Source of the DNA: Paenibacillus polymyxa | GTDB taxonomy: Bacteria; Bacillota; Bacilli; Paenibacillales; Paenibacillaceae | NCBI RefSeq assembly: GCF_001719045.1 | Contig: NZ_CP015423.1 | Location: 4,897,501 to 4,961,500, forward strand | Direction: 5' to 3' | Length of the DNA: 64,000 bases | Shown: piece by piece, positions 9,527 through 22,237 of the stretch | Layout of the letters: each line of letters begins with the position of its first letter | Numbering within the stretch: the first letter of the stretch is position 1 | Translations under genes and position numbers: made by a program | Notes under the pieces: model-generated | The model's input: only the letters and a program-made list of their open reading frames with translations | Databases searched by the model: none | Told to the model about the DNA's origin: nothing

Positions 9527-12500
9527 TTACCTCTGTGTTGCTTTTACAGATACCGATGGAGAGGTCGGGAAGTAACCGATCTCGACGGCATGCTGGATCA
9601 TGTTCCGAATAAAGTTAAGGTCGGTTGCCGGGCATTGAACGCCAGCTTGTTCCAGCAGAGCTGCGGTTACAGAGCATCCGTAACGGTAAGCTGAATCCTT
9701 GGCTCCGTCACCTTCCAGTTGTCCCATAGCAAGGTGAAGGGCATCCTCCTGAATGCCGGAAGACGGATTCAGCAGCCAAGCGCTGTAATCGTCAAAAGGC
9801 AGGGTTTCTACTGCGTAACCGAGTTGGTTTACCATAGCGATCAGTTCATCATATGGCAGTGGGTTCGGATTGCAGATATGGAAAATGCGGTTTGCGCTTT
9901 TTTGATGAACGGACAGCTCTACGATAGCACGGCTGGCGTAATCAATCGGTGTGAAGTCCGTATGCCAATCGGCTTGTGGCGCTTTGCCCAGCACCAGCAT
10001 CGCTTTCATCATACGATAATAAGCATTGCTGTCGATATTTCGCTGGAAGCGTCCGTTGGCCGAATGGGCTGTCAAATTGCCTGCGCGATAGATCGAGACA
10101 GGCGTACCCGTTTGAGCTGCTTGGAACAACAGTTTCTCCGCCGCGAGTTTACTGTTCGTGTACAGGTTGTCCACGTTCAGTTCTTCTGGGAAGGCAGAAA
10201 GCTCCAATGCCGACTCCCATTTTCCTTCGTTAGCAAGATCCTCCGGTATTCCCATAGTAGAGACATGATGGAAGGATACTCCTGGCTTGGCTTGAGCGAT
10301 TTTCAGCAGTTCCAGTGTTCCGGTTACATTCGTGCGATCGAAGGCTGCCGAATCACCAAAATGGCGAACGTCAGCGGCGCTGTGAATGATGCCGTCGATT
10401 TGGTGCTCCAGCATATGGCGGTCGACGGAAGAGAGACCCAGATCAGCTTGCTCCAGATCCCCATAGACAGCTTTTACCCGTCCTTCAATCAAGCTGGAGA
10501 TATCTTGTCCAAAATATCCCGTCAATACGGACTGAATACGCTCGATACCGGATGGACCGTCCTGAGAAGGGCGTACCATCGCGTATACTTTGGCTTCTGT
10601 CCGTTGAAGTAGGTCATACAGAATGTGCGAGCCCAGATAGCCTGTAGCACCGGTTAACAAAATCACGTGCAAGTCGCGGACTTCAGCTAAGTCAGAAGCA
10701 CCAGACAACTCAATAGGATGCTCATTCAAGTCCATTTTTTCTTGAGAAATCGCGAGTGGCTTGCGTTGCGGCGTTTGTTCCGTACCTAATTGTTCCACGT
10801 ATTCAGCAAGCTCGCGAACGGTTTTGTAGCGGAAAAAATCTCCGATGCGCAGCGCGCCATAACGCGGCTTTAGAATAGCCAGCACATGAATGACACGAAG
10901 CGAATCGCCCCCGATCAGGAAGAAATCATCGGTAGCGCCAATGTTATTTTTACCAAGCACTTGAGTCCATGCTTCGGCAATGAGTGTTTCGGTTCCTTCT
11001 CGGAGAGGTTCCCCGCCAAATGAAAGATCAGACGCTTCGGGAAGTGGTCGCAGGGCCAGCTTTTTGCGATCGATCTTGCCAGTTGGTGAAATTGGCATGG
11101 CTTCCAGATGAACGACATGGCTTGGTACAAAATAAGAAGGCAGCTTGCCCCCAATATAAGACTGAATAACGTCTTGTGGAATGGATTGTCCATCCGAAGT
11201 GGTAAAATAGCCAACTAACATGTTCTGATCTGTGTGATCTTTGACGGCTACTACAGCGACGTCCTGAACACCTGGATGTTTGGAAAAATGGTCTTCAATT
11301 TCTCCAATTTCAATCCGATTCCCCCGAATTTTGAGCTGTGAATCCTTGCGACTTACGTATTCAATCGTACCGTCTGGCAGCAGCTTGGCGATATCACCCG
11401 AACGGTACATTTTTTCACCCGGAACAAAAGGGTTGTCCACAAACGATTGAGCTGTACGTTCTGGCTGATGGAGATAGCCATGGGCCAACGCAGGCGTAGC
11501 AATGCATACTTCACCCGGAATATTGACAGGGCAAAGCTTGTTATCATCGTTAACGATATACACTTTGTAATTGTAAATCGGCTTGCCGATCGGAATATTG
11601 ACGACATGCTCAGGCACGGCACCACGGACTCGATGGGTCGTCGTCGCTACGGTGCATTCGGTCGGTCCGTATACGTTTACGATGTCGGTATCTGTACCGA
11701 ATTTGCTTTGGAACGCTCGAACTTGTGAGCCGTACAGCGCTTCGCCTGCCACGGTAACGATCCGTACCTTAGCGAGTTTGCGATAGCCTTCGTCTGACAA
11801 GTACGTAGATAGCTGATTAAAGAATACGGTCGGCAAAATGGTAATAATCGTCGTGCCTGTACGTGCAATGGCTTCAGCGAATTCTTCAACAGATACACGT
11901 TCTTCGGCAGACAGCAAGTACAATTTTGCACCGTAAAACAAGGCTCCAATTGTATCCCAAACGGATGCATCGAAGCTGTAGGTTGCAAATTGGGTCAATA
12001 CATCCTGAGGTGTAATGTCGCAATCACGTTGCACGACAGCTCCTAGGTTAACGACACCGCGGTGAGCGATCAGGGCACCTTTCGGTTTGCCTGTAGAGCC
12101 GGATGTATAGATGACATAAGCTAGATCATCCGGACTTACATTAACGTTTGGATTGCTTGCAGCATAGCCTGCCAGTGGTCCGTTAATTGCTAAAATTTCT
12201 TTTACCGTCTCAATGGAACCGCACAGTTCAGTCGCTTGTTTCATGAGTGCGGAAGTTGTTAAGACAAAAGGAGAACGCGTGTCTTCGACAATGTAGCTGC
12301 TCCGGTCGGCGGGGTGGGCGGGATCAACAGGCACATACACGCCCCCGGCTTTCAGGATACCCAGAAGGGAAATAACGGTCTCCAAGCTTCGTTCCATGAA
12401 GATAGTCACGAATTCACCTTTGGTAAGACCTTTAGATAACAAGACACGTGCGACTTGGTTAGCACGTTCGTTCAACTCACGGTACGTGTACTCTCCAGTG

Positions 12501-13222
12501 TGGGAAGCAATAGCCGGACGATCAGGGTATTGTGAAGCAGCCTCCTCAAACATTCCATGAATAGTTTGATGCTCAGGATATTTCACGACTGTATTATTTA
12601 AAGCTTCGTGAGCAGCTCGATCTGCATCTGATAATATATCAATGGAGTTCACAAGTGCATGGCTGTTGGTTAGCGCGCCACGCAAAAGAGTTTCAAAGTA
12701 TTCTGCGTATCGGACAACCGTTGTTTCCAGCAAGAGTGATTGATCATATCGGATCTGTATTTGATAAGTGCCATTGTGTTCACTAACAGCCCAGTCCATA
12801 ATACGGGATTCTACTCCGCTGTCCGTAGGCAGATTTGCCGAAAATGAAGTATCGGCTTGTGGTTCCGCAAGGTATGCATTAGGCTCACGGAGCATCTCCT
12901 GAAATAAGTCTGCTAGTTCATGAAAAGTCGTTTCCTTTTCGACTGTCAGCGAAGCTGTAAGCAGACCGGTTTGTGGCACAAATGTAGAAAAAGAAACTTC
13001 TTCTTCTGCGGATAGGCGATATACCCATGCAGTATATGCTGATAAAAGCAACGTTTGTTTGTCTTCCGCAGTTTTTTGCTGATTTAATTGTTCCGAGATG
13101 GACGCTTCTAACTCTACTTGATAAGTAGAGGATGTATGCTTGCGTTGTATACGTGCACAATCCAAGGGAACTAGGAATGGGGATGGGGTTGTCTGTGTGC
13201 TGTTTTGTAGTAATGAAGCCAT
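9527..13222 (-). CDS. Single-module NRPS: half condensation domain, adenylation, carrier, thioester reductase
   Basis: A 1231-residue synthetase. Residues 12-190 match only the C-terminal lobe of a condensation domain; the lobe holding HHxxxDG is absent. The adenylation domain (about 205-715) shows YTSGSTGKPKG, FDASVW near 416, NVYGPTEC, YRSGDIAKL and PTGKIDRKKL. A carrier domain follows with the phosphopantetheine serine in GGDSLR near 773. A reductase domain (about 838-1130) has the NADPH motif TGATGYLGS near 856 and YTNSK near 1021. Such enzymes activate an acid, load it and release it reductively as aldehyde or alcohol. A hand-derived specificity code, D-A-W-T-T-A-V-V-A-K, leans toward an aromatic residue but is uncertain. 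AGGAGG lies eight bases before ATG. No PPTase or partner NRPS lies nearby. The upstream neighbour is a chemoreceptor. Confidence 0.92.
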   Translation of the reverse strand: MASLLQNSTQTTPSPFLVPLDCARIQRKHTSSTYQVELEASISEQLNQQKTAEDKQTLLLSAYTAWVYRLSAEEEVSFSTFVPQTGLLTASLTVEKETTFHELADLFQEMLREPNAYLAEPQADTSFSANLPTDSGVESRIMDWAVSEHNGTYQIQIRYDQSLLLETTVVRYAEYFETLLRGALTNSHALVNSIDILSDADRAAHEALNNTVVKYPEHQTIHGMFEEAASQYPDRPAIASHTGEYTYRELNERANQVARVLLSKGLTKGEFVTIFMERSLETVISLLGILKAGGVYVPVDPAHPADRSSYIVEDTRSPFVLTTSALMKQATELCGSIETVKEILAINGPLAGYAASNPNVNVSPDDLAYVIYTSGSTGKPKGALIAHRGVVNLGAVVQRDCDITPQDVLTQFATYSFDASVWDTIGALFYGAKLYLLSAEERVSVEEFAEAIARTGTTIITILPTVFFNQLSTYLSDEGYRKLAKVRIVTVAGEALYGSQVRAFQSKFGTDTDIVNVYGPTECTVATTTHRVRGAVPEHVVNIPIGKPIYNYKVYIVNDDNKLCPVNIPGEVCIATPALAHGYLHQPERTAQSFVDNPFVPGEKMYRSGDIAKLLPDGTIEYVSRKDSQLKIRGNRIEIGEIEDHFSKHPGVQDVAVVAVKDHTDQNMLVGYFTTSDGQSIPQDVIQSYIGGKLPSYFVPSHVVHLEAMPISPTGKIDRKKLALRPLPEASDLSFGGEPLREGTETLIAEAWTQVLGKNNIGATDDFFLIGGDSLRVIHVLAILKPRYGALRIGDFFRYKTVRELAEYVEQLGTEQTPQRKPLAISQEKMDLNEHPIELSGASDLAEVRDLHVILLTGATGYLGSHILYDLLQRTEAKVYAMVRPSQDGPSGIERIQSVLTGYFGQDISSLIEGRVKAVYGDLEQADLGLSSVDRHMLEHQIDGIIHSAADVRHFGDSAAFDRTNVTGTLELLKIAQAKPGVSFHHVSTMGIPEDLANEGKWESALELSAFPEELNVDNLYTNSKLAAEKLLFQAAQTGTPVSIYRAGNLTAHSANGRFQRNIDSNAYYRMMKAMLVLGKAPQADWHTDFTPIDYASRAIVELSVHQKSANRIFHICNPNPLPYDELIAMVNQLGYAVETLPFDDYSAWLLNPSSGIQEDALHLAMGQLEGDGAKDSAYRYGCSVTAALLEQAGVQCPATDLNFIRNMIQHAVEIGYFPTSPSVSVKATQR

Positions 13223-17908: not shown

Positions 17909-17942
17909 ATTGTGCGTGTGAAGGTTAAAACTGCTTTTAGAT

Positions 17943-17974
17943 AAAATACCGACTTCTCGGTATTTTATTTTTTT
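17943..17974 (+). terminator. Terminator of the MarR gene
   Basis: AAAATACCGA and TCGGTATTTT form a perfect 10-bp stem around CTTC, followed by ATTTTTTT. Confidence 0.9.
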
Positions 17975-17995: not shown

Positions 17996-18024
17996 TTAAT
18001 GTAGAGACGCAAATCAGGTATAAT
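17996..18024 (+). promoter_or_regulatory. Putative sigma-A promoter of the B12-sensor/kinase operon
   Basis: TTAATG and TATAAT (18019-18024) are separated by 17 bp, 76 bases before the start of the cobalamin-binding protein. The -35 is a partial match. Confidence 0.45.
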
Positions 18025-18100
18025 TGTCTAATAGTCACGTCTGGAACAAATCCCCAGTATCTGTTTCGAATACAATACCTTGTCGGGGAAGGAGCTGTAC

Positions 18101-19165
18101 ATGAGTATACAGCAATATACCGCAGGTGAATCGCTCTTGATGCAAGCAGGAGCTTTGGCTGAATTAGTTACCCATAAGCAATACGAATTACAGCCCGATC
18201 TTTTGCAGCGTTTTGGGGATAACGGTAAAATAAAGACAAAACAGGATTCTATATATAGTTTGAACTATTTAGCTGAAAGTGTAATCATGAACAGCCCTAT
18301 TTTATTTACACAGTATGTTTCTTGGTTAAAAAAGCTTCTGGAGGGTTTCGGCATAACCCAAGAAGATTTGAGCATCAATTTCAGATTAATCCAGGAGACG
18401 TTGGTAGAGCATTTCGATCATACAGATAAAGTTATGGTGCTGGAGCATCTGGATTTGGGGATACAGCAAATAGGGAAGAAAGAGGAGTATGCCTCTTTTA
18501 TTATAGATGATAATCCCTATGCTGCTGACGTGGCTCAATATTTGGAATATTTACTCTCAGGTAATCGCAGACAGGCTTTGGATTGGATCGTCCGTTTGCT
18601 GGATGAGGGTATCTCTATTCAACATACGTATAAATATATTTTTCAAATTTCGCAATATGAAATAGGTCGTCTATGGCATGAAGGCAAAATCACCGTCGGT
18701 CAAGAGCATTTTTGCACTGCTGTGACTCAATTTATTATTTCCAGCCTGTACCCCCAATGGATGGGGAATGGAAATAAGGAACGCTGCCTCGTGGCGGCGT
18801 GTGTAGGCAGCGAGCAGCATGAAATTGGTCTGCGTATGCTGGCTGATCTATTTGAAATGGATGGTTGGGATACGTATTATTTAGGCGCCAATGTACCTAA
18901 CCGGAGTCTGCTTCAGGCCATTGTGAGTTACGAGGCGGATGTGGTGGCTATCTCAGCTACCATGGCTTACCATGTCCATCTAGTGAAAGAGTTGATTGCT
19001 CTCATTCGGCAAGACCCAACGACTAGCCATGTGAAAATTATGGTCGGAGGCTTGCCTTTTAATCTCGATTCCCACTTGTGGCAGGAAGTAGGGGCGGACG
19101 GATACGCACCAGGTGCGGAGGAAGCGCTGGAGGTTGCAGGGGACTTACTTTCGCTCAGGAAATAA
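18101..19165 (+). CDS. Cobalamin-binding sensor protein with Wx9EH photoreceptor motif
   Basis: A 354-residue soluble protein. Residues 1-140 are helical and unassigned. A four-helix cap (about 150-225) carries W192 and E202-H203, exactly the Wx9EH spacing that marks the AdoCbl photoreceptors CarH and LitR. The Rossmann B12-binding domain follows with EQHEIG (H240), the lower-ligand DxHxxG motif with D replaced by E, then ANVPNRSLLQAI and MVGGLPF. Unlike CarH/LitR it has no MerR DNA-binding domain. A hybrid histidine kinase without membrane helices begins 48 bases downstream. The inferred role is to sense cobalamin or light and control that kinase. GGAAGGAG precedes ATG 18101; an in-frame upstream start at 18080 is less likely. 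Confidence 0.88.
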   Translation: MSIQQYTAGESLLMQAGALAELVTHKQYELQPDLLQRFGDNGKIKTKQDSIYSLNYLAESVIMNSPILFTQYVSWLKKLLEGFGITQEDLSINFRLIQETLVEHFDHTDKVMVLEHLDLGIQQIGKKEEYASFIIDDNPYAADVAQYLEYLLSGNRRQALDWIVRLLDEGISIQHTYKYIFQISQYEIGRLWHEGKITVGQEHFCTAVTQFIISSLYPQWMGNGNKERCLVAACVGSEQHEIGLRMLADLFEMDGWDTYYLGANVPNRSLLQAIVSYEADVVAISATMAYHVHLVKELIALIRQDPTTSHVKIMVGGLPFNLDSHLWQEVGADGYAPGAEEALEVAGDLLSLRK

Positions 19166-19213
19166 GGTTAGTTATGTGAACCTGTAGTCATTTTGTAAAG
19201 GGGGCCTTTTAAT

Positions 19214-20929
19214 ATGAAGGAACCGACAGCAGAAATGGCTGTCCTGCGGAAAACGGTCGAACAATTAACGGATGAGATTGTGAAAAGCAAGGCTGAGGAA
19301 GAAAAGTTGCTGAATGAATTTTCATCAATGAACAACGAGCTGGTCAATCTGCAGCGTCAGCTTGCCAAAAGCAATGCGGAATTAACACGGACGAAGGAAG
19401 AAGCGGTACGGGCTAATGACCTAAAGAGCACTTTTCTGGCTGTGGTTAGTCATGAATTCAGAACGCCAATGAACGGAATACTTGGAATGATTGAAATGTT
19501 AGGTTCATCCAAACTTTCCCCAGATCAACGGCAGGCCATCGGTGTTATACGTGAGTCAGCCTCTCTGTTGTTGAACATGATTAATAATCTGCTCGATATA
19601 TCTAAAGTGGAAGCAGGACAGATGGAACTGGAGATCGGAAACGTCAGAGTGCAGGCGATTATGAGCCACGTTGCTCAGTTGTTGGAGCCACAAATCTATC
19701 AGATGGGTAACCGTTTGAGTATAGAGACCGATTCCGGTGTGGCAGAGCATCTGGAGGGAGATTCGGCAAGGATCATGCAGATCTTGCTCAATCTGTTGAA
19801 CAATGCGAATAAATTTACCAGTGAAGGATTGCTCATCATTCGAACAAAATTGGTGGAGGAAACAAAAGATTCCCAACGTGTTCGGTTTGAGGTGCAGGAT
19901 TCGGGTATTGGTATTTCACCGGAGGATCAGAATAAGCTGTTTCAGCCTTATGTACAAGCCAGTGAAGGCAGCGCCTCCCAATATGGAGGAACGGGTCTAG
20001 GGCTATGGATATGCAGTTCATTTGTGGAACTCATGCAGGGAGAAATTGGGGTCGTCAGTAAAGAAGGCCAAGGCTCCACGTTCTGGTTTGAAATTCCCCT
20101 CATGAAAGGATCGGAGCAGGCAGACGAAATGGAGAAGCATGAAAATGGTGATTTGAAGGCATTTAGCGAGTTGCTGCGTGAGCATAGTCATTCTCAAACT
20201 ATTTTGGTGGCTGAGGATAATCGGGTGAATCGGCAGGTGGTGCAATTACAGCTTAACCACTTGGGATTCCAGCATATTGATTTTGCTGAGGATGGACAAG
20301 CTGCTGTAAGAGCGGCCTCCGAACGATCCTACGCTTGTATTCTAATGGATCATCATATGCCTCTGCTGAATGGTCATGATGCGGCAAAAGCGATCCGCCA
20401 GCGGGAAGCAGAAAACCAGCAACCCCCTGTACCGATCATTTCTTTGACCGGAAATGTATCCGAGGAGGATCAGGCACGGAGCCAGGAGGTTGGAGTGAAC
20501 GATTACTTGATGAAGCCAGTAACGATTGAAAAGCTCTCTGAAAAGCTTGTAAAATGGCTTCCAAAGCCGGAAACCGAGCCGATTTTGGATGAGGAAGTTA
20601 TACGTGAAATTATGCTGCTGGACGAGGATGGCAGCACGGGACTACTGGAGTCATTGGTCGAAATGTATACGAGTGATACACTTGCCAAAATCAATAAGTT
20701 AAATGAACTGGCTGCTGCGGGCGAAGCCACAAAAGTAGTAGAGGCTGCTCATGAGTTGAAATCAGGCAGCGTGAGTCTGGGTGTCGGACGTTTGTCCTCG
20801 TTGCTGTCCGATATTGAACAGCTTGCACGGGAGAACCGACTCGAGAATGCGAAAGCGAAGTTGTCTGCACTCCAATCTGTCTATCAAGCAACGTGTTTAG
20901 AACTGGAACGCTATATTCACCAGTGCTAG
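19214..20929 (+). CDS. Cytosolic hybrid histidine kinase (HisKA-HATPase-REC-HPt)
   Basis: A 571-residue kinase without membrane segments or a recognisable sensor domain. An N-terminal coiled coil (about 1-65) leads to HisKA with phospho-accepting H80 in VVSHEFRTPMNG. HATPase_c shows NLLNNANKF, DSGIGI and GTGLGLWI. A receiver domain has acceptor D379 in LMDHHMPLLNG and the conserved lysine in YLMKPV. A C-terminal HPt domain has H513 in AAHELKSGS. This is a complete His-Asp-His relay missing only the final response regulator, which is not nearby. The cobalamin-binding protein gene just upstream probably supplies the sensory input. AAGGGGG precedes ATG 19214. Confidence 0.93.
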   Translation: MKEPTAEMAVLRKTVEQLTDEIVKSKAEEEKLLNEFSSMNNELVNLQRQLAKSNAELTRTKEEAVRANDLKSTFLAVVSHEFRTPMNGILGMIEMLGSSKLSPDQRQAIGVIRESASLLLNMINNLLDISKVEAGQMELEIGNVRVQAIMSHVAQLLEPQIYQMGNRLSIETDSGVAEHLEGDSARIMQILLNLLNNANKFTSEGLLIIRTKLVEETKDSQRVRFEVQDSGIGISPEDQNKLFQPYVQASEGSASQYGGTGLGLWICSSFVELMQGEIGVVSKEGQGSTFWFEIPLMKGSEQADEMEKHENGDLKAFSELLREHSHSQTILVAEDNRVNRQVVQLQLNHLGFQHIDFAEDGQAAVRAASERSYACILMDHHMPLLNGHDAAKAIRQREAENQQPPVPIISLTGNVSEEDQARSQEVGVNDYLMKPVTIEKLSEKLVKWLPKPETEPILDEEVIREIMLLDEDGSTGLLESLVEMYTSDTLAKINKLNELAAAGEATKVVEAAHELKSGSVSLGVGRLSSLLSDIEQLARENRLENAKAKLSALQSVYQATCLELERYIHQC

Positions 20930-20983: not shown

Positions 20984-22237
20984 ATGAAAGAACAGTTGCG
21001 TTCTATTCACCCGCTGGCCTGGACGATTATTGTCGGTACTATTTTTGGGCGGATGGCGACATCCATGAGTATCCCGTTTTTGTCTATTTATCTTACCACC
21101 CGTTTAGGGGTGTCCCCCTTTCATACGGGGGTGATCGTATCGGTCAGCTCGTTGGTCGGCATTTTTGCCAGCTTTTACGGTGGATATATTTCAGATCGAA
21201 TCGGACGGCGTAAGGTGATGCTGGTGTCCATTGCGAGCTGGGCGCTTGTATTCGTTGCTTTTGCGTTGGCGGAAGCGGCCTGGGCCTTTTTTGTCATTAA
21301 TGCTCTGAATGGACTGTGCAGATCCTTGTTCGAGCCAACCTCACGGGCGCTGTTATCAGATGTAACCCCGAAGGAGAAAAGACTGCTTATCTACAATATG
21401 AGATATGCGGCCATTAATGTTGGGGTAGTGGCAGGGCCGTTGCTTGGTTTAATGCTAGGATCTGCATCCACGGGTACGCCGTTTATGGTAGCTGCTGGTG
21501 TGTACGCATTGTACGGGGTACTGTTGTTGATCCAATTTACCCGGTATGCATCGGATCTGCATATAGGTACAACAGCGGGAGAGGCCCCACTGCGAATGGG
21601 CGAGGCATTCCGCACAGCCAGCCGTGATCCGGTGTTTATGCCAATTTTGCTGGGAACGGTATTTTGTGTGATGGGCTATGCGCATTCCAATTCCACAATG
21701 CCTCAATTCTTGTCCGTATCCTTCGCAGAAGGAACCCGATGGTTTACATACATGCTGACGGTCAACGCGGTTTGTGTATTGGCATTTCAATATCCGCTGG
21801 TGCGACTGGCAAGCCGATTTTCCCCGGTGAATTCCTTGATTGCAGGGAATATATGTATTACGGTCAGCCTGTTGCTGTGCGGTATGCTAAACTCAGGCTG
21901 GATGTTTATACTGGATATGGTGCTGTTTACGGTTGGTGAAGTGTTATTGTTCACGATGCTGGACGTATTGATTGACCAAATTGCAGATGCTCAATATAAA
22001 GGGACCTACTTCGGTACAATCGGCTTTAATAATTTGGGAAGCGTGCTGGCTCCTTTATTTGGTGGCTGGTTGCTGGATATCTATGGTCAAACGGCGCCGC
22101 TTGCCGTTTTTGTTCCGGTTGCCCTGTCGGTTGTGATTGGTATTCCATTCCTTCTGGTCGCACGCCGCCGTCTGGTGCAGCGTACAGCACGGATCGCGGC
22201 TCAAGGAGGAGAATCGGTGCAGCAACTGTCATCATAA
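20984..22237 (+). CDS. MFS transporter
   Basis: A 417-residue, 12-TM major facilitator protein. Loop 2-3 reads GGYISDRIGRRKVM, matching the family motif GxLaDrxGrkxx. A long membrane-free centre and a basic tail rich in Arg (ARRRLVQRTARIAAQ) follow. It belongs to the drug/peptide exporter group (MdtG/YttB-like). The gene starts 54 bp after the hybrid kinase on the same strand with no terminator between, so it may be part of that operon and its output target. The AAGGAGG lies 15 bases before the ATG, longer than usual. The substrate is unknown. Confidence 0.88.
   Translation: MKEQLRSIHPLAWTIIVGTIFGRMATSMSIPFLSIYLTTRLGVSPFHTGVIVSVSSLVGIFASFYGGYISDRIGRRKVMLVSIASWALVFVAFALAEAAWAFFVINALNGLCRSLFEPTSRALLSDVTPKEKRLLIYNMRYAAINVGVVAGPLLGLMLGSASTGTPFMVAAGVYALYGVLLLIQFTRYASDLHIGTTAGEAPLRMGEAFRTASRDPVFMPILLGTVFCVMGYAHSNSTMPQFLSVSFAEGTRWFTYMLTVNAVCVLAFQYPLVRLASRFSPVNSLIAGNICITVSLLLCGMLNSGWMFILDMVLFTVGEVLLFTMLDVLIDQIADAQYKGTYFGTIGFNNLGSVLAPLFGGWLLDIYGQTAPLAVFVPVALSVVIGIPFLLVARRRLVQRTARIAAQGGESVQQLSS

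Follow-up and report, generated by a model that had tools for sequence, protein, structure and literature searches.

Photocobilins are known from SasPcob and AbDPcob (PMC10979010; PDB 8J2W, 8J2X, 8J2Y), and PMC10979010 describes a B12 domain that can lie at either end of the protein, in stand-alone or fused form. AbDPcob has a His at the Asp270 position and binds biliverdin weakly; adenosylcobalamin (AdoCbl) lowers its diguanylate cyclase (DGC) activity and light raises it more than tenfold. Separate light-adapted photocobilins also alter DGC activity in trans according to the same text, a precedent for gating between two proteins, and the role of stand-alone photocobilins is given there as less clear. 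Here, we analyzed a stretch of 64,000 nucleotides (the window; positions 4897501-4961500 of the one-contig, 5.76 Mb Paenibacillus polymyxa genome GCF_001719045.1, NZ_CP015423.1) in which the gene for a 354-amino acid photocobilin-like protein is followed by the gene for a hybrid histidine kinase. We put at about two in three the probability that the two genes form a split light-signaling unit, in which the photocobilin gates a dedicated receiver in trans.

The sensor class is known; the partner is conserved and apparently unreported, subject to Schneider et al. 2022. The photoglobin-B12 bundle of those authors reportedly has the same domain pair and is said to be linked to prokaryotic signal transduction through domain fusions and gene neighborhoods. 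Our literature search returned no paper recognized as describing a photocobilin-kinase pairing, which Schneider et al. 2022 may already report. In the main texts of PMC10979010, PMC11796333, and PMC10151467, the term "histidine kinase" is absent.

Domain make-up of the 354-amino acid protein

An earlier note on this DNA had pointed to the W192-x9-E202-H203 spacing and to H240, in EQHEIG, as marks of a B12-based light sensor lacking the MerR DNA-binding domain, and these observations held. Across 121 aligned sequences (the window protein and 120 listed of the 557 relatives found), W192, E202, and H240 were invariant and H203 was present in 120, a degree of conservation that excludes a chance occurrence. 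Both photocobilin motifs, W-x9/10-EH (W192, E202-H203) and E/DxH (E238-x-H240), are found in the protein. The D-to-E change in DxHxxG, which had been noted as of interest, is the usual state of the family, with Glu in 90 and Asp in 31 of the 121 sequences. Pfam assigned B12-binding_2 and B12-binding to the protein and no DNA-binding family, and membership in CarH/LitR was rejected on that basis and on an NCBIfam CarH score of 43.1 bits against a cut-off of 400. In the structure comparison, the B12 half was closest to the photocobilins SasPcob and AbDPcob, and the closest named relative among the matches listed was from Paenibacillus sp. (97%). We infer from these residues that the window protein binds AdoCbl.

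The N-terminal ~140 residues had been left unassigned and the photocobilin class was thereby missed; the first ~136 can be assigned to a bilin-binding, phycobiliprotein-like globin. A profile of this region from 21 relatives matched allophycocyanin beta (5.3e-9), SasPcob (8j2w; 3.9e-7), and AbPcob (6.5e-5), and 18 of the 21 relatives matched PF00502 (Phycobilisome) at E up to 1, the best at 2.2e-11. Five helices are predicted in the window domain, which is recognized as a globin-like bilin domain by profile only. D49, Y72, and W75 were invariant in all 21 profile members; in the larger alignment Y72 and W75 were present in 121/121 and D49 in 120/121, the remaining sequence having a gap. In the alignment, D49 falls on the Asp of CxRD, the motif of phycobiliproteins, and on Asp270 of SasPcob, and W75 on SasPcob Trp296, so that both bilin contacts of SasPcob have a counterpart; Trp61 and His108, used to check the SasPcob numbering, also fell at the right places. 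The Cys for covalent bilin attachment is absent (Thr46), as expected for a photocobilin. With a bilin-binding globin in its N-terminus and a B12 domain behind it, the protein belongs to the bilin-first photocobilins, a class already described in the literature, and bilin binding and photochemistry are predicted for it from sequence.

The position at which phycobiliproteins carry their attachment Cys lies three residues ahead of the invariant Asp (T46-D49, window 18236-18247); it holds Cys in 53, Thr in 48, and Ser in 17 of the 121 sequences. Cys-bearing bilin-first photocobilins might attach bilin covalently, unlike SasPcob.

A partner with a conserved motif adjoins the photocobilin across phyla

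Gene order was compared at 80 loci, the best 80 of 293 relatives from a scan of genome contigs, of which 51 were Paenibacillaceae-type and 29 came from other groups. Together the loci cover about a dozen phyla; the 29, judged by their record titles, come from Chloroflexota, Acidobacteriota, Bacteroidota, several desulfo- and gammaproteobacterial groups, Poribacteria, Cloacimonadota, Coprothermobacterota, Myxococcota, Balneolota, and Mcinerneyibacteriota. One of the 80 loci (L053) has a broken photocobilin. A kinase was the next gene on the same strand in 75 loci (73 by script; L034 and L073 by reading), a GGDEF protein with a GG[DE]EF motif in two (L063, L071), and a partner without output, ending 24-38 residues past the start of the motif described below, in three (L066, L078, L083). 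The split light- or B12-gated phosphorelay proposed in the earlier note thus finds strong support as a pairing, through conserved adjacency, and its gating by light or B12 is carried forward as a presumption.

All partners at the 80 loci have in common a short coiled coil ahead of the output with the motif FSxxNNEL...QR.L, of which two Asn, one Arg, and one Leu were the only invariant columns in an alignment of 29 partners. A 32-residue model built from 50 Paenibacillaceae partners ranked the next gene first in 29/29 distant loci (1917 open frames, several loci holding other kinases; E no worse than 5e-4, against 0.9 for the best competing frame), and the reverse model, built from the 29 distant partners, ranked it first in 51/51 Paenibacillaceae-type loci (3921 frames; worst E 1.3e-5, best other 1.0). 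The N-terminal part of distant partners has a PAS fold, present in most of them and lost in the window kinase. When the partner alignment was run as a profile against the PDB, the single hit was a chance match.

The window kinase, of 571 amino acids and encoded 48 bp downstream of the photocobilin gene, had been described as a soluble HisKA-HATPase-REC-Hpt protein without a sensor, and Pfam agreed, finding these four families and no sensor family; the highest 19-residue hydropathy mean was 1.17. It keeps the H, N, G1, G2, REC, and Hpt residues of a hybrid histidine kinase and should therefore feed a separate response regulator. At one further locus (L146, 4134-5144), a partner-like front part is fused to GGDEF with no photocobilin beside it, and a second photocobilin lies on another contig of that genome.

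Partner and photocobilin in whole genomes

The partner profile matched in 25/25 distant genomes, with exactly one match in 22, a strong second match in G079, and weak extra matches in G085 and G099; as 21 of the 25 genomes contributed a sequence to the profile, matches at these loci are partly by construction, and what the search shows is the near absence of other matches. The best match adjoined a full-length photocobilin in all 25, and in the genome of the window the single match was the window kinase.

A survey of 75 genomes of the genus gave 48 with an intact photocobilin, 10 with a damaged one, and 17 with none, and the partner motif was found in 48/48, 7/10, and 2/17 of these, respectively. 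The check suggested in the earlier note, a search for conserved adjacency, came out in favor of the pair, since the motif was adjacent in all 48 intact members (30-86 bases between match ends) and unlinked relatives were not met among them; some of these genomes are of the same species as loci among the 80, and the two sets are not independent. A caveat to that adjacency is that kinase genes without a photocobilin exist (G009, G030).

Heme oxygenase occurred in 39 of the 48 genomes of the genus whose photocobilin is intact, 6 of the 10 with a damaged one, and 6 of the 17 with none (Fisher p = 0.0014 for intact versus none, uncorrected for relatedness). A cobalamin adenosyltransferase gene is present in the genome of the window. 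The same genome (G000), in which PF01126 heme oxygenase was not found, has four ABM (PF03992) genes, at 3741209, 1870778, 5575187, and 5200544, which are candidates only for a source of bilin.

Two genus members (L156, 3199-4456; L157, 2852-3908) carry a B12-domain gene and a small separate globin gene, adjoining and on opposite strands, as if a photocobilin had been divided into two genes, and G065 looks the same in the survey table. The photocobilin-less kinase of L160 (4284-5993) has changed REC residues by eye (AEVN for AEDN, NPI for KPV) and is perhaps decaying.

Organization of the locus

By window open-reading frames and Pfam, the gene order is GNAT, RpiA, VanZ, MarR, photocobilin, kinase, MFS, and the features are listed in Table 1. 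Position 17996, where the earlier note had the feature start, lies in upstream sequence only, the open-reading frame starting at 18101. The MFS pump mentioned there does follow, at 20984-22237; an MFS gene comes after the kinase in only 2 of the 80 loci (L004, L020), and it was rejected as a part of the system. Terminator-like patterns numbered 7 in the region against 3.9 expected, and a promoter scan was uninformative (8 observed, 9.4 expected). Elsewhere in the window, a 1231-amino acid protein (9527-13222, minus strand) reads by eye like a single nonribosomal peptide synthetase module ending in a reductase domain.

Table 1 Features of the photocobilin-kinase locus (window coordinates)
Feature	Position	Strand	Basis
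Photocobilin-like photoreceptor, 354 aa from ATG, bilin domain first, B12 domain second	18101..19165	+	
N-terminal bilin-binding globin domain (by profile), residues 1-136, with D49, Y72, W75	18101..18508	+	profile match of 21 relatives
Predicted AdoCbl-binding four-helix + Rossmann region, residues 138-354, with W192, H193, E202, H203, H240	18512..19162	+	
Shine-Dalgarno-like AAGGAG, six bases 5′ of ATG 18101	18089..18094	+	sequence
Partner kinase, 571 aa: coiled coil, HisKA, HATPase, REC, Hpt; catalytic boxes kept	19214..20929	+	
Conserved partner motif FSSMNNELVNLQRQLAKSN, kinase residues 36-54	19319..19375	+	
Terminator-like hairpin + T tail, interval between MarR and photocobilin genes	17939..17970	+	pattern match only

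Proposed mechanism and alternative explanations

The proposal of a split unit starts from what was observed: the domains of the two proteins, the residues of the pockets, the conserved adjacency, the motif specific to the partner, and the swappable outputs. In the dark, AdoCbl would be held by H240 as its lower ligand, in the space that separates the four-helix part from the Rossmann part, and bilin, if available, would occupy the N-terminal globin. Light, acting directly or by way of the bilin, would cleave the Co-C bond; H193 may then take the role of His132 in TtCarH and cap the cobalt, and the quaternary structure of the photocobilin would change. The partner would read this change through the NNEL...QR.L coiled coil, together with the PAS domain in most distant relatives, and turn its output on or off; by analogy with AbDPcob, the lit photocobilin would change the partner coil. 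In the window genome, the output would be the HisKA-HATPase-REC-Hpt phosphorelay. Physical contact between the two proteins and the sign of control are presumed here, and the suggestion in the earlier note that the kinase coiled coil is the contact fits its being the only motif common to every partner.

Several observations weigh against the proposal. The N-terminal domain of the window protein alone gave no PF00502 match, and the fold comparison covers residues 138-354 only, the bilin domain being assigned by profile. The correlation of photocobilin and partner distances (26 loci, r = 0.71, 0/5000 permutations), which counts in favor of the pair, does not separate co-inheritance from species phylogeny. 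PF01126 heme oxygenase was not found in the window's own genome, nor in any of the five other genus members with a photocobilin at least 84% identical, so that biliverdin supply, and with it red sensing via biliverdin, is doubtful in this lineage, despite its intact pocket. At nine damaged photocobilin sites, six kinases are full length and three truncated, and in the two photocobilin-less genomes noted above the kinase, still full length, has kept its position behind RpiA and MarR; over 11 sites with a broken or missing photocobilin (L147-L155, L159, L160), a record of repeated loss in Paenibacillus, the kinase is full length in eight. Kinases that outlive their photocobilins may work alone, and their retention fits a photocobilin-restrained kinase, a kinase with another input, or late decay.

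The alternative that survives best, which we nevertheless regard as unlikely, is that the protein is a gauge of AdoCbl level that reports coenzyme B12 abundance to the kinase, photolysis being incidental. With a cobalamin adenosyltransferase present and a canonical heme oxygenase not found, only the B12 half is clearly supplied, as such a gauge would have it; set against this, at least 120 of 121 relatives retain the adenosyl-stacking Trp and the Glu-His pair of light-sensing B12 domains, as well as both bilin-contact residues, for which a protein that only gauges B12 would have no use. Somewhat less probable again is that the genes are co-transcribed neighbors in one pathway whose photocobilin never touches the kinase. 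The retained kinases at 8/11 sites of loss would suit such an arrangement, as would the one orphan partner-GGDEF gene of L146, away from any photocobilin, but the same motif stands ahead of kinase, GGDEF, and output-less partners across phyla, which is hard to explain unless it is the motif, rather than the output, that the photocobilin needs. A corrinoid protein of a methyltransferase system, as the MtbC1-like annotation in public records would have it, is very improbable given the extra bilin globin, a signaling protein as next gene in 80/80 loci, and MtbC/MtgC scores of 61 bits against a cut-off of 350 and 60.2 against 370.

Beyond the split light-signaling unit of the window, we lean, with less assurance, toward a broader view: that split photoreceptor systems of this kind are widespread, bilin-first photocobilins being paired in them with a dedicated receiver family that has a PAS domain, an NNEL...QR.L coil, and outputs that can be exchanged (kinase, phosphorelay kinase, diguanylate cyclase, or none). 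The window lineage would have reduced its receiver to the coil, which would thus be the minimal light-transmission element. The partner of a stand-alone photocobilin becomes testable here, as a conserved neighbor with its own coupling motif in a culturable Paenibacillus, and would offer a natural plug in which one photoreceptor and one short coil serve several outputs. If true, this would provide a green-to-red light input for kinases between two proteins, useful in optogenetics, and would test the reach of B12 light sensing in non-phototrophs.

Comparison with known systems

The window protein resembles SasPcob and AbDPcob in combining a B12 domain bearing the W-x-EH and E/DxH motifs with a bilin globin, and retains Asp270 and Trp296 of SasPcob as D49 and W75. 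It differs from both in the opposite domain order and in His193, at a position that is Gln in SasPcob and Tyr in AbDPcob, and whereas AbDPcob is fused to its DGC, the window protein stands beside a separate partner gene. With CarH/LitR it has in common the B12 fold, W-x9-EH, and the lower-ligand His, with His193 at the place of TtCarH His132, but it lacks their MerR DNA-binding domain, carries an added bilin domain, and has its output in a separate protein. AerR and the SCHIC domain of AppA differ in having a DNA-binding repressor, CrtJ/PpsR, as partner and no bilin globin. On the kinase side, TorS, BarA, and ArcB have the same HisKA-HATPase-REC-Hpt order and catalytic boxes, whereas the window kinase has no membrane sensor and scores far below the equivalog cut-offs of those proteins.
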